This document shows, piece after piece, positions 42,597-52,023 of a DNA stretch of 64,000 bases. The stretch's first letter is position 1. Every line of letters begins with the position of its first letter. The notes beneath the pieces were generated by a model. It saw only the letters and a program-made list of their open reading frames with translations, had not been told where the DNA came from and did not search any database. The position numbers and the translations under genes were made by a program. The stretch spans positions 2,028,501 through 2,092,500 of the forward strand of contig NZ_CP054491.1 of NCBI RefSeq assembly GCF_013343005.1, in the 5' to 3' direction. This DNA is from Candidatus Reidiella endopervernicosa. GTDB taxonomy: Bacteria > Pseudomonadota > Gammaproteobacteria > GCF-013343005.

Positions 42597-42657
42597 CGCT
42601 AACAAACGCTGTGTTGGCACTGTTTTATGGCTAGGCCGCTGATGCGAGGCGTTAGCT
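42597..42657 (+). other. Integron recombination site attC6 (last of the array)
   Basis: CGCTAAC (42597) and GTTAGCT (42651) are the outer arms, with AACGCTGTG-like and GATGCGAGGCG inner boxes. At 61 bp it is a short attC. Its right arm overlaps the stop codon of the last gene of the DAB operon on the other strand. Confidence 0.78.
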
Positions 42658-44151
42658 ACCTGCTTGTAAAGTAACGCCACTCACCCATGCCTCACTCGCG
42701 CTCCGCGTCAGATCGTAAACTCCATTCGGATAGAGTCCCGCTCAATAATCAATAGTGCCATCACCATCATGATGGTCAGTTCACGCCGTTTCAGGTCGAG
42801 GCTGTCGGCGACAACGGTGCTCTGTACCGGGCCGAGGAAGGCCTGGCGGTAGATGGTGAGGAAGTAACCTGCGCCGAGGATTAGACCGAAGAGTGCCGCA
42901 AGTCCGGTACCGGTGTGGGCTTCGAGTACGCTGATCAGAATAGCGTGTTCAGCAGCAAAGCCGTTGGTGCCGGGTACGCCCATGCCTGCAATGCCAAGAG
43001 AGGAAGTAGAAGGCGGCGAGCAACGGCATGCTCTTGGCGACACCGCCAAGGCTGGCGTAGTCGGTTGAGCCGATGCGTTGATGCAGATAACCGGTGAGCA
43101 GGAAGATGCCACCCGCCACAACGACGAAGTTGAGTAGCTGGAACAGCGCGCCCTGCAGACCAATGATCTCAAGTGAGGCGATACCGAGTACAACTAGACC
43201 TGCGTGACTGATGCTGGAGAAGGCGAGCATGCGTCGTAGGTTGCTCTGCGCCAGCGCCAGGATCGCACCGTAGATCACCCCAGAGATTCCCAGTCCGGCC
43301 AGCAGCCAGTGGAACTCGTGCGCGGCCTCGGGTGCGAGTGGAATGGTGAAACGGATCAGACCGTATAGCCCCAGTTTCAGGCCCACCATGATGGCGGTGA
43401 TTGCGGCCGGACCCTCCATCGCTACCGTCGGTAACCAGGAGTGGAACGGCACCACACCCGCCTTGGCAGCAAAGCCAACCAGCAGCAGGAAGAAGACGGC
43501 AGTCTGAAGCTCAGCCGGGAGCGGTGTGGAAAGCAGCGTTTGGTAATCAAAGACCAATCCGCTAGCCCCCGTGTGATTGAAGGCGAGTACCAGGAAACCG
43601 AAGAGCATCGGCACACCGGTGGCCATCATAAAGAGGGTGTATTTCACCGCCGCGTAGCGACGGTTGGGCCCGACACCCCAGAGGCTGATCAGGAAGTAGG
43701 TCGGAATCAGCGTCAGTTCCCAGAAGAGGAAGAAGAGCATGGTGTCGAGGGCACAGAAGATGCCGATGACCGAACTCTCCAGCACCATCAGCAGCATGAA
43801 ATAGAGACGCGGCAGGGTTCGGGTTGTGTTCCAGGAGGCGAGGATTACGCCAATGAAGAGCAATACCGTCAGCGGCAGAAAGAGAATCGAGATGCCATCA
43901 ACGCCGATCAGGTAGTCGACATTGAGCGTCGGAATCCAGCTGTGGCGCTCGACCAGCTGAAAGCCGCTGTTGGCTGGATTGAACTGCGCCACGGCGATGA
44001 GCGAGAGCACCAGATCAAACAGTGCGGCAGTCAGCGCGATCCAGCGCGCACGTAGCGGGTCGGGGGTCAGCCAGATCAGTAGCGCTGCAACCGGCAGCGA
44101 GACGATCATCAGACTCAGAATGGGGAAGTCGTTGGTAACTGTATCAAGCAT
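42652..44151 (-). pseudogene. NuoM-like antiporter subunit, third in the DAB operon, two frameshifts
   Basis: The ATG at 44151 (MLDTVTNDFPILSLMIVSLP) starts 25 bases after the previous gene. Fourteen or so helices follow with the conserved Glu in LFWELTLIPTYFLI and Lys in AAKAGVVPFHSWLP and GLKLGLYGLI. A frame change near 43000 (after LLAAFYFLSW) and a second near 42745 lead to the normal NuoM ending AGLYPNGVYDLTRSASEAWV. The stop TAA is at 42652-42654. The shifts compensate: 1500 bp is 500 codons. The subunit would carry protons or other ions for the operon's transporter. Confidence 0.85.
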
Positions 44152-44176
44152 CGGTAGAGATTCCTGTAACGACCAT

Positions 44177-50200: not shown

Positions 50201-50544
50201 TCGCCGCGACTCACGGGACCCGAGGTGCTCTGGAACAGCACCTCGTCGGCATTCAGCTCAGGACTCTCGTTGAGAATCTGCTGCAGGTCGGTGCGGTTGA
50301 TGCGTCCCTGTTTGTAGAATTTACGGAACTGCTCGATCGGCAGGTAACCGTGTACACCGCTGTTCTCTTCCACCGCCGCCAGTGCGTCGGGAAAGGGGAG
50401 CTTCTCGTAGCCGTGCAGGGTGTTGTGGTGGACAAAGTCCTTGATCGGTGCCTGACCGGGAAGCACATGTTCAAAGTGCTCGATGGCGTGGTTAAGGCGT
50501 TCGCGAATCTCTTCGATGGTAGCGGAATGGCTGGCGTTGGACAC
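47248..50544 (-). CDS. dabA: DabA inorganic-carbon accumulation protein (DUF2309)
   Basis: The gene encodes 1098 residues, intact, the usual length for the longer DabA group. It has a beta-carbonic-anhydrase-like zinc site: VIFCMDDREEGIRRH (Cys, Asp, Arg) and, much later, the His in MGHGSISQNNPHLAAYDCGA with Cys of DCGACSGRHSGP. GAEHNTCNEEIIWYDADI and SLEYYFSTVNNEEYGSGSKV are family blocks. The protein is thought to hydrate CO2 directionally to bicarbonate in the cytoplasm, driven through DabB. It is encoded between a NuoM-like gene and dabB. Autotrophy on limited CO2 is the natural reading. Confidence 0.95.
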   Translation of the reverse strand: MSNASHSATIEEIRERLNHAIEHFEHVLPGQAPIKDFVHHNTLHGYEKLPFPDALAAVEENSGVHGYLPIEQFRKFYKQGRINRTDLQQILNESPELNADEVLFQSTSGPVSRGEITIAALVNPLNRLTGCQLNWKIEEQDALHSFQDDVSDKRRQRLLKAAAEKGFNGEADAINDLWGACLEGLGLEYYILHPEELIDLSPEDAERILTSLSGEESGEEHSHHHRAQQHSKELLSELLERAGSDLTLRGVLKAVTGIDLLDELRPTLVRYLAAYLDQGMAAWHNIDRSEGFYAAWRNSAANDLGWLFDDLPEWRDELDFLPEDPLETIIIELRRLGLEASKWERYLELLSLEIPGWSGMFLWRHLNPGYEGLDTKVEMIDYLAVRLILERLFAQRICRKQWQLEASFDVLRWYFQRRSSEFLIRYALFNSHLPEYLITQAQRQIERAHSETENYAPWQQLADMIWTWQQSPAADRPDSYTVQHHAWQLFRIAQHLGLCGDEIRTLNTAQLDAMFDLLDELSDNRAGFIWLRAYERHYREQVFNAIAANHGRGRRAVREQRPSAQVIFCMDDREEGIRRHIEELAPSVETMGAAAHFNVFNFWHGLDDEKPSVLCPVVAVPTHDVREVAKPEHQPLAESHSQRRSLRLKIKSLLAQSTQRNIFSSALLITAAAPAALLTLIGKSIAPFGFGRAVEKSRQSFEQERIDTRIQFTATEAKSDATPEAPQQGFTDSEQADRAEAFLKNIGLLSDHSPLPVIMGHGSISQNNPHLAAYDCGACSGRHSGPNARILAAMINRPEVRALLVERGITIPDDTWFIGAEHNTCNEEIIWYDADIIPEALQKKFTTLQAQLLEASEKSAHERCRRLASAPDNPSLKQAYRHIAGRATDFSQARPELGHATNASALIGRRSVTQGAFFDRRIFLISYDPTTDESGAVLERLLLANGPVGAGISLEYYFSTVNNEEYGSGSKVTHNVSGLLGVMDGTSGDLRTGLPRQMIEIHEAMRLLVICEATTEMLTEIYKRQPPIQELVGNGWLLLAAKDPDSGTIHSFDPSQGWIEWEGDQPPLTTVKRSPDWYNGHSEPLTPALIEQQEVANA

Positions 50545-50556
50545 GGCTACGGCTCC

Positions 50557-52023
50557 TTATAGTGTGCCCGCAAACGCGGCGCTCATCTGTTCAACCGAGC
50601 TGGAGACCAGCTCCAGTGCCGGGGTCGGGTAGAAACCGATTAGCACGATGGCTGCGGTGAGCACCCCGGCGGCGACCATCTCGGTGCGGCGCAGATCCTC
50701 TATCGCGGCCATCTCCTTACGGACCGGGCCGGTGAAGAGGCGGCCGACGGTGCGAATCGCATAGGCGGCGCTGATCAGCACGCCGAGGCTCAGCAGTACG
50801 ACCACCCAGCCCCAGCGTTCGAAACCGCCAATCAGGGCGTGCAGCTCGGCGATGAAGCCGACCGTGCCGGGCATGCCGACGGCGGCGACAAAGGCGAGCA
50901 CGGTGAAGAAAGCGAAGCGCGGCGTGGTGCGAACCAGCGAGCTGTAGTGGGTGACATCGCGGGTCTGGGTGCGCTCATAGAGCAGACCGATGAGCAGGAA
51001 TAGCGCACCGGCAACCAGGCCGTGGGCGAACATCTGCATTACCGCGCCGGTCAGTCCGGCGACATTCATGGTGGCGATGCCGAGCAGTACCACACCCATG
51101 TGGCTGATCGAGGAGTAGGCGATCATCCGTTTCAGGTCACGCTGACGCCAGGCGAGCAGGCCACCGTAAACAAGACTGAACAGCGCCAGTGCGGCGAGAA
51201 ACCCCTGCAGCGCGAGCACTGCGGCGGGCAGCATGTCGGCGGCGCGGATCAGGCCGTAGGAGCCCATCTTGAGCAGGATGCCGGAGAGCAGGATCGAGAC
51301 CGGACTGGGCGCCTCGACATGCGCCAGCGGTAGCCAGCCGTGGATCGGGAAGATCGGCATCTTCACGCCGAAGCCGATCAGGAAGCCGAGGAAGATCAGA
51401 ATCTGGGTCTGCTCCGGCAGGGCGCGGGCACCGGCGAGCATGGTGTCCATGGCAAAAGAGTGGCCAGGCAGGGCATCAAAGAGGATCAGTACGCTCAGTA
51501 GCAGGAAGACCGAGCCGCCCATGGTGTAGAGCACGAAGTTGAGCGAGGCGGTGTGACGCTGCTTGCCACCCCAGCGGTCGATAAGGAAGAAGAGCGGGAT
51601 CAGCGTCAGCTCCCAGAAGACGTAGAAGAGCGACCAGTCCTGCGCCATGAAGACGCCGAGCATCGCTGATTCGAGCAGCAACATTAATAGGTAGTAGCCC
51701 TTAACCCGCTCCTTGATGCTGGCCGAGGCCATGATTGCGATCAGACTGAGCAGGGTGGCGAGCAGGATCATCGGCAGCGAGAAGCCGTCGATACCGAGTG
51801 AGAAAGAGGTGCCGAGACGTGGATTCCAGGGAACATTGACGCTGAACTGTATGGCGGCGCTAGCGGTATCGAAGGAGAGCAGCAAACCCCAGCCGAGCAG
51901 CAGCGTGGCACCCGATGCGGCGAGTGCGGTGTTGCGAATCAGTTGGCGATTGTCGTTCGGCAGAACAGCGATCAGCGCCGCGCCGATAATGGGGAGGAAC
52001 AGCAGCAGAGTGAGGTTGTGCAT
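50557..52023 (-). CDS. NuoM-like antiporter subunit, first gene of the DAB operon
   Basis: The gene encodes 488 residues, intact, with the conserved Glu in YVFWELTLIPLFFLIDRWGG and Lys in GFGVKMPIFPIHGWLPLAHV and GILLKMGSYGLIRAADML. It is closest to complex I NuoM. It is followed after 12 bases by dabA. An extra NuoM-like subunit upstream of DabA marks an extended form of the DAB operon. The promoter should lie in the 890-base spacer upstream. Confidence 0.92.
   Translation of the reverse strand: MHNLTLLLFLPIIGAALIAVLPNDNRQLIRNTALAASGATLLLGWGLLLSFDTASAAIQFSVNVPWNPRLGTSFSLGIDGFSLPMILLATLLSLIAIMASASIKERVKGYYLLMLLLESAMLGVFMAQDWSLFYVFWELTLIPLFFLIDRWGGKQRHTASLNFVLYTMGGSVFLLLSVLILFDALPGHSFAMDTMLAGARALPEQTQILIFLGFLIGFGVKMPIFPIHGWLPLAHVEAPSPVSILLSGILLKMGSYGLIRAADMLPAAVLALQGFLAALALFSLVYGGLLAWRQRDLKRMIAYSSISHMGVVLLGIATMNVAGLTGAVMQMFAHGLVAGALFLLIGLLYERTQTRDVTHYSSLVRTTPRFAFFTVLAFVAAVGMPGTVGFIAELHALIGGFERWGWVVVLLSLGVLISAAYAIRTVGRLFTGPVRKEMAAIEDLRRTEMVAAGVLTAAIVLIGFYPTPALELVSSSVEQMSAAFAGTL

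Follow-up and report, generated by a model that had tools for sequence, protein, structure and literature searches.

Five adjacent genes in a 64,000-nucleotide window of Candidatus Reidiella endopervernicosa (contig NZ_CP054491.1) are best read, on the comparisons given below, as an extended DAB operon for CO2 uptake, and these comparisons support the view that the additional antiporter-like subunits belong to the operon. We propose that the products probably form an extended DAB (DAC) complex, that is, a proton-driven vectorial carbonic anhydrase with an enlarged membrane arm. Dozens of bacteria that oxidise sulfur, ammonia or methane carry this five-gene set as well, and its wide occurrence suggests that the known two-protein pump has an enlarged form.

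Composition of the operon and the state of M3

The genes lie on the minus strand in the order M1-dabA-dabB-M2-M3, four of them intact (Table 1). The gene order and the distances between genes given in the initial annotation (12, -8, 13 and 25 bases, the negative value being an overlap of dabA and dabB by 8 bases) agree exactly with the ORF coordinates. As the intergenic space is too small for more genes, the content of the operon is one PF10070 member and four PF00361 members; the five-gene span holds no peripheral redox arm, no NuoA-, NuoH-, NuoJ-, NuoK- or NuoN-like gene and none of the small subunits MrpB/C/E/F/G.

Table 1. Genes of the extended DAB operon, in window coordinates
Gene	Product	Length	Position	Strand	Family matches
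M1	NuoM-like antiporter subunit, first gene of the operon	488 aa	50557..52023	-	PF00361 232 bits; TIGR01972 501 bits (cut-off 263.8)
dabA	cytoplasmic beta-carbonic-anhydrase-like subunit	1098 aa	47248..50544	-	PF10070 782 bits (cut-off 25)
dabB	NuoL-like subunit	516 aa	45705..47255	-	PF00361 147.8 bits; PF00662
M2	NuoM-like subunit	504 aa	44177..45691	-	PF00361 117 bits
M3	NuoM-like subunit, two compensating frameshifts	~500 codons	42652..44151	-	PF00361 177 bits (first 400 aa)

M3 has the extent of 500 codons first assigned to it and yet is not the single open frame it was taken to be. Frame A is open to ~43000, the homology continues in frame B (~42998-42744) and then returns to frame A up to the stop codon at 42654-42652, so that the frameshifts fall near 43000 and 42742. 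Compared by tblastn with the intact M3 of five relatives (frames A/B/A), each of the three pieces shows 54-74% identity. We had considered that M3 was truncated by the integron-like cassette array that adjoins its 3' end, and rejected this as the tblastn pieces make up a full-length gene with two frameshifts. The indels could stem from errors in the assembly or mark the onset of decay. It is possible, although we think it less likely than not, that the operon is decaying in this genome, M3 being a pseudogene and the complex reduced or dead: besides the two frameshifts and the direct contact of M3 with the array, chemotaxis and integrase genes near the operon are broken, and further regions of the genome also show low ORF coverage, the pseudogene frequency being an estimate from ten 20-kb samples only. 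However, M1, dabA, dabB and M2 are intact across ~7.8 kb, and the M3 indels compensate one another, the pieces retaining their identity to a natural C-terminus, which fits assembly errors as well.

Recurrence and ancestry of the five-gene set

The survey of dabA neighbourhoods that had been put forward as a check showed that 58 of 80 named loci have the whole order M1-dabA-dabB-M2-M3, and that 14 more are consistent with it up to their contig ends. Since the order is complete in so many loci, the cluster is not a product of chance. In the tree M1 (support 100/100), M2, M3 and the extended DabB form one clade each, with subclades that recur across all four, and therefore the set is old. M2 and M3 are sister clades (99/97), whereas M1 is nearest to NuoM with weak support (87/55). 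DabB and M2 are naturally fused at L039, L106, L109 and L118, and probably at L124, and in the genomes that carry the fusion the M1 or M3 orthologues sit on other contigs. The fixed order, the single clades, the fusions and the retention of M1 or M3 in genomes with a split operon all uphold the initial view that the extra subunits are part of the operon.

Many copies of the operon have bicarbonate transporters and carbonic-anhydrase-like genes as neighbours: SulP is directly upstream in 14 loci, SbtA is nearby in three nitrifiers, and genes resembling carbonic anhydrases adjoin 16 loci. At L055, in another genome, a set of Mrp small subunits stands beside dabA.

That NuoM genes occur beside dabA, and that the number of subunits could set the number of ions, has been published before (PMC5700660, 2017). 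That paper, on COGNAT, describes a 'clade C' of COG3002/ybcC, in which ybcC/dabA lies upstream of a nuoL homologue together with additional COG1008 (NuoM) and COG0659 (SulP) genes, and proposes that the ion number rises with the number of membrane subunits; the function was then regarded as exergonic ion export. Its main text mentions neither a set of five genes in fixed order nor the loss of pumping residues in M2, the truncation of DabB, the fusions or the change in the finger.

DabA, DabB and the proton-transfer residues

The closest characterised system is DAB2 of Halothiobacillus neapolitanus (DabA2-DabB2, PDB 9rd0). DabA matches the DabA2 structure 9rd0_A in profile comparison (E 9.6e-104), with which it shares the PF10070 domain, the finger region and the zinc site, formed by C569, D571, R573, H761 and C776 (Cys351, Asp353, Arg355, His524 and Cys539 of DabA2). 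When these five positions were mapped onto 84 extended DabA proteins and 9 others, nearly all of the extended ones proved to keep them. A PF10070 score above the cut-off, the zinc site and an adjacent NuoL-like DabB, all expected of a DAB/DAC system, are thus present, whereas Glu444 of the finger, which DAB2 cannot do without, is not: T670 occupies its site here, Glu is absent from this position in 84/84 extended DabA, and two related DabA proteins carry Gln. This glutamate defines DAB2 and not clearly the whole family. The extended DabA is also longer than DabA2 (870 aa), has His at the position of Leu658 and is encoded ahead of dabB, unlike in DAB2. The AF2 model of DabA (pLDDT 80.7) places the finger helices at ~631-702, around the protein's single hydrophobic segment (661-686); a fold search with this model gave no useful match, DabA2 being missing from the best matches.

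DabB is NuoL-like, as in DAB2, and carries the conserved R182/D185/K235/K310/H343 of DabB2. Its residues 3-357 match the genome's own NuoL in profile comparison, and TM1-11 superpose on the complex I subunit with an rmsd of ~2 Å over ~360 columns (Foldseek). In the AF2 model (pLDDT 85) TM1-11 are followed by amphipathic helices and one terminal TM; TM12-15, which in DAB2 receive the DabA finger, are absent. Weak sequence matches hint at homology of this C-terminal part to the lateral helix of NuoL, which profile comparison did not confirm. With three extra subunits and a DabB of this form, the operon does not encode a two-subunit complex of the DAB2 type.

At DabB2 positions 151, 260 and 347 (Ile151, His260 and Lys347) DabB has E152, Y259 and R347, in 75/75 sequences. 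The replacements I151E, H260Y and K347R were considered as a signature of operons with additional subunits, a reading that was dropped because a sister two-gene DabAB lineage (L114, L145; Methylomicrobium, Nitrosomonas mobilis) shares them and is without M2 in 6/32 genomes. This lineage often co-occurs with the extended operon, in two cases adjoining it, and differs in its longer DabB (625-635 aa) and in its DabA, which is ~860 aa long and carries Gln in place of Glu444.

Several antiporter-like subunits side by side also make up the complex I membrane arm (NuoL/NuoM/NuoN), and the equivalents of NuoM E144/K234/K265/E407 are kept in M1 and M3. All four are present in M1 (E138, K221, K252 and E393), and the TM5 Glu, TM7 Lys, TM8 Lys and TM12 Glu are conserved in 73/73 orthologues. 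The open part of M3 carries E145, K230 and K259, the TM5, TM7 and TM8 charges being kept in 55/55 sequences and the TM12 Glu in 54/55; the piece of the window's M3 that was used ends before TM12. M2, by contrast, has I148, R234 and A406 at these sites and retains K264 alone, the TM7 Lys being replaced by Arg and both the TM5 and TM12 Glu lost in 66/66 sequences. As M2 is without three of the four charges, no more than two of the extra subunits could add ions, and the proposal in the initial annotation that they could raise the number of ions used per bicarbonate is tenable for M1 and M3 but not for M2. Conserved charges are no proof of proton flow.

Proposed mechanism and its alternatives

Based on these data we propose that DabA would act as a zinc-dependent vectorial carbonic anhydrase, converting cytoplasmic CO2 to HCO3- in one direction at the expense of proton entry. 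The membrane arm would consist of the shortened NuoL-like DabB and the three NuoM-like subunits, M2 being a structural link beside DabB that does not pump, and M1 and M3 the subunits with the full set of proton-transfer residues. Two or three protons (through M1, M3 and perhaps DabB) may enter per CO2, and therefore a steeper HCO3- gradient, or operation at a lower protonmotive force, than with DAB2 would be possible. A single complex of all five proteins, the direction of flux, the proton number and the order of subunits are what we infer from sequence. We put forward more tentatively, as somewhat less probable than its contrary, that the operon represents a separate class of vectorial carbonic anhydrases, having a complex-I-like arm of four subunits, no TM12-15 in DabB and no finger glutamate in DabA, in which an inert M2 bridges DabB to the complete pumps M1 and M3, and whose two or three protons per CO2 stand against the small number that one DabB passes. 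Against the proposed complex, the proton path of DabB is altered, so that the M subunits might lack any coupling to DabA; M3, moreover, is frame-broken in this genome.

It is conceivable that the complex uses or moves Na+ instead, as in the Na+/HCO3- symport proposed for MpsAB (cited in PMC13144422), or that it runs in reverse, HCO3- dehydration pumping ions out. Antiporter-like subunits are able to handle Na+, in the genome G025 dabA, Mrp subunits and SulP make up a single run of genes, a direct association with a Na+/H+ antiporter, and the hosts include autotrophs without carboxysomes and methanotrophs that make CO2. We nevertheless find this improbable, as the residue set of M1 and M3 is that of the proton-pumping complex I subunits, DAB2 is Na+-independent, and the operon, missing the Mrp small subunits, does not qualify as an Mrp Na+/H+ antiporter.

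In the cyanobacterial NDH-1MS complex (NdhD3/NdhF3/CupA) CO2 hydration is tied to a membrane arm of the NuoL/NuoM type. With this precedent of a CO2-hydrating tip on complex I, the M subunits could be an adaptor that docks DabAB on the membrane arm of the complex I present in the cell, electron transfer then driving CO2 hydration. The weakly supported affinity of M1 to NuoM and the intact nuoL/M/N genes away from the operon (1.712-1.717 Mb) would fit such docking. Yet the operon is without any redox, NuoN-, NuoH- or NuoK-like gene, and its four antiporter-like subunits exceed the NDH-1MS tip. It belongs neither to NDH-1MS (CupA/ChpY, NdhF3/NdhD3), DabA being a PF10070 protein and DabB falling outside the NdhF3 subfamily (TIGR01960, 161.3 bits, far below the cut-off of 588.7) and scoring better as NuoL, nor to respiratory complex I, where NuoA/H/J/K and the peripheral arm stand in the place taken here by the carbonic-anhydrase-like DabA. 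In addition, DAB2 is reported to be driven by the protonmotive force without electron transfer (PMC13144422), and we give docking slightly less weight again than the use of Na+. The initial suggestion of redox coupling is likewise unsupported, since none of the five genes encodes a redox subunit and intact complex I subunits are encoded elsewhere in the genome. Least probable of all is that the three M proteins form an ion antiporter of their own, serving pH homeostasis and merely co-transcribed with dabAB: co-transcription by itself is no proof of a complex, and in some genomes the related two-gene DabAB functions, or is at any rate maintained, where M2 is missing, but DabB and M2 are fused in nature, M1 precedes dabA and M2 and M3 follow dabB in a fixed order, a non-pumping M2 is retained everywhere, and the Mrp small subunits are not present.

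An adaptation to high pH, which had also been suggested, is unsupported, because most of the hosts with a name are sulfur oxidisers, nitrifiers, methanotrophs or Magnetococcales. In line with the proposed CO2 uptake, the present genome encodes form I and form II RuBisCO and a single DabA, and no carboxysome shell protein was found in it. If the proposed proton-driven complex is correct, nature offers, for the same CO2 hydration, both a complex driven by a single antiporter-like subunit and one driven by four, and these can be compared directly, bearing on the long-standing questions in bioenergetics of whether each antiporter-like subunit moves one ion and how force is transmitted along the row. 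As CO2 hydration is not a redox reaction, these could be studied without the quinone chemistry of complex I. The extended operon would likewise bear on the inorganic carbon supply of many sulfur oxidisers, nitrifiers and methanotrophs, sometimes, as here, without carboxysomes.

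The five-gene operon and its distribution

The initial annotation placed M1, dabA, dabB, M2 and M3 in this order with intergenic gaps of 12, -8, 13 and 25 bases, and our analysis gave the same arrangement (Table). DabA, the beta-carbonic anhydrase (CA)-like cytoplasmic subunit, is present as one copy in the host genome, and the host homologues of NuoL, NuoM and NuoN are intact and lie apart from the operon, at 1.712-1.717 Mb of the genome. The host carries one form I and one form II RuBisCO, and no carboxysome shell protein was found in its genome.

The five-gene set is ancient and fixed. 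Among the class's 34 DabA-bearing genomes, three (G135, G097, G130) carry the identical genes in identical order, a fourth (G093) has them distributed over two contigs, and in another (G050) the contig ends after the operon's first part. A scan of named genomes yielded 80 loci with the extended (five-gene) DabA type; the order is complete in 58, consistent up to a contig edge in 14, and deviates in four, while in the remaining four DabB and M2 are a single protein, as also in G067. Where operons with this fusion are split, M1 or M3 orthologues are located on other contigs. The hosts include Thiodiazotropha, a Solemya symbiont, Thiothrix, Thiobacillus, Nitrosospira, Nitrosomonas, Methylobacter, Competibacteraceae and Magnetococcales, and M2 is present in 60 of 121 genomes sampled from the order of Methylomicrobium sp. 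RS1. In a maximum-likelihood tree the NuoM-like M1 (100/100), M2 (100/100) and M3 (99/97) and the NuoL-like extended DabB (100/100) each form a single clade, M2 and M3 being sisters; M1 is nearest to NuoM, with weak support. One Thiothrix operon (L094) contains tandem pairs, M1-dabA-dabB-dabA-dabB-M2-M3.

In the assembly the M3 frame is open only as far as ~43000; beyond it, homology is found in another frame as far as 42744, after which the original frame resumes and runs to the stop at 42654-42652. Together these segments extend to the natural end, each with 54-74% identity to the intact M3 of five relatives. The two indels, which compensate each other, may stem from mistakes in the assembly or mark the onset of decay. 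ORFs of at least 200 codons cover 0.57-0.83 of bases in other parts of the host genome, which is low compared with 0.73-0.95 in a one-contig relative. The M3 stop codon is supplied by the last attC-like core of a cassette array. The CheD- and CheB-like genes are apparently frame-broken, suggestive of either decay of a chemotaxis cluster or indels in the assembly. Divergent from the operon lie adhesin-like ORFs, split into several fragments, with DUF4347, Ig-like, Calx-beta and PKD domains.

Coordinates of features in the window and in compared loci (L)
Feature	Sequence	Position	Strand	Remark
M1	window	52023-50557	-	PF00361 match
dabA	window	50544-47248	-	PF10070 match, 782 bits
dabB	window	47255-45705	-	PF00361 match
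M2	window	45691-44177	-	PF00361 match
M3	window	44151-42652	-	PF00361 match
Integron-like cassette array	window	40170-42655	+	six attC-like core sites
attC-like core sites	window	40249, 40738, 41130, 41840, 42236, 42648	+	
Integrase-like ORF	window	38261-38620	-	broken
CheD- and CheB-like genes	window	35743-37340	+	
Adhesin-like ORFs	window	52914-59869	+	
Direct repeat, ~290 bases	window	33688-33977, 35072-35359	+	97-100% identity, spacing 1.38 kb
Operon with tandem dabA-dabB	L094	8499-23171		
LCIB-like putative CA gene	L082	10115-11260		
CsoSCA-like putative CA gene	L142	12207-13472		
dabA-Mrp-SulP run	L055	873-12780		
Two-gene DabAB	L114	3316-7823		
Two-gene DabAB	L145	18772-23231		

Putative coupling residues

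We mapped DabA and DabB residues by alignment to the solved chains of DAB2, the two-subunit DabA2-DabB2 complex of Halothiobacillus neapolitanus. The zinc site is conserved in nearly all of 84 extended DabA. In DAB2, replacement of the finger Glu444 by Ala or Gln eliminates activity (PMC13144422); none of the 84 has Glu at this position, the most frequent residues being Ala (30) and Asp (19), and the window has Thr670. Extended DabB retains NuoL TM1-11, beyond which it has only amphipathic helices and one terminal TM. The periplasmic half-channel of DAB2 is probably made up of TM12, TM13 and the DabA finger (PMC13144422). As TM12-15 and the finger glutamate are absent, the DAB2 coupling path is likely altered in the extended type, a reading based on sequence and one single-chain model.

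In all 75 extended DabB, Glu, Tyr and Arg replace Ile151, His260 and Lys347 of DabB2. The same residues occur in DabB of a sister two-gene DabAB lineage (Methylomicrobium, Nitrosomonas mobilis), which is present in the absence of M2 in six of the 32 genomes from the sampled order, and they are therefore no proof that the M subunits are needed. This lineage adjoins an extended operon of the same genome at L114 and L145.

Of the charges in proton-pumping NuoM, TM5 Glu, TM7 Lys and TM8 Lys are kept in every M1 (73/73) and M3 (55/55), and TM12 Glu in 73/73 and 54/55, the single exception being the window M3 piece, which ends before TM12. M2 retains TM8 Lys alone of the four charges, TM7 Lys being Arg and both glutamates missing in 66/66. 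Thus, judged by these residues, no more than two of the three additional subunits resemble complete proton pumps.

Inorganic carbon and a proposed mechanism

In 14 loci a SulP-type transporter gene is located upstream of M1 at a distance of no more than 200 bases, SbtA is near the operon in three nitrifier loci, and two borderline CA-like families flank it (LCIB-like in six loci, CsoSCA-like in 10). These neighbours support a function in supplying inorganic carbon. Assignment of the flanking genes to CA is weak: one of the three proteins tested scored above cut-off with the LCIB-like model, and the two CsoSCA models gave one score above cut-off and one far below. The putative CA genes directly adjoin the extended operons, as in L082 and L142. 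In L055 (genome G025) a dabA (950 aa) without adjoining dabB stands in a single run of genes together with a SulP gene and subunits of an Mrp Na+/H+ antiporter, possibly a Na+-linked DAB variant; another G025 contig carries a canonical dabB-dabA pair.

The DAB2 paper describes the complex, there termed DAC, in two-subunit and three-subunit forms, the third subunit of DAB1 being a hypothetical small membrane protein rather than an antiporter (PMC13144422). The 2017 COGNAT paper reports NuoM and SulP genes as neighbours of nuoL and ybcC/dabA, and already proposes that the number of ions rises with the number of membrane subunits (PMC5700660). In the papers covered we found no published account of the fixed set of five genes together with a non-pumping M2, a truncated DabB and the fusions.

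The analysis shows the gene set, its conservation, the residues, the missing helices and the neighbours. We propose that the five proteins would form one complex, in which M2 may serve as a structural link and proton entry via M1, M3 and perhaps DabB would drive one-way CO2 hydration at DabA.
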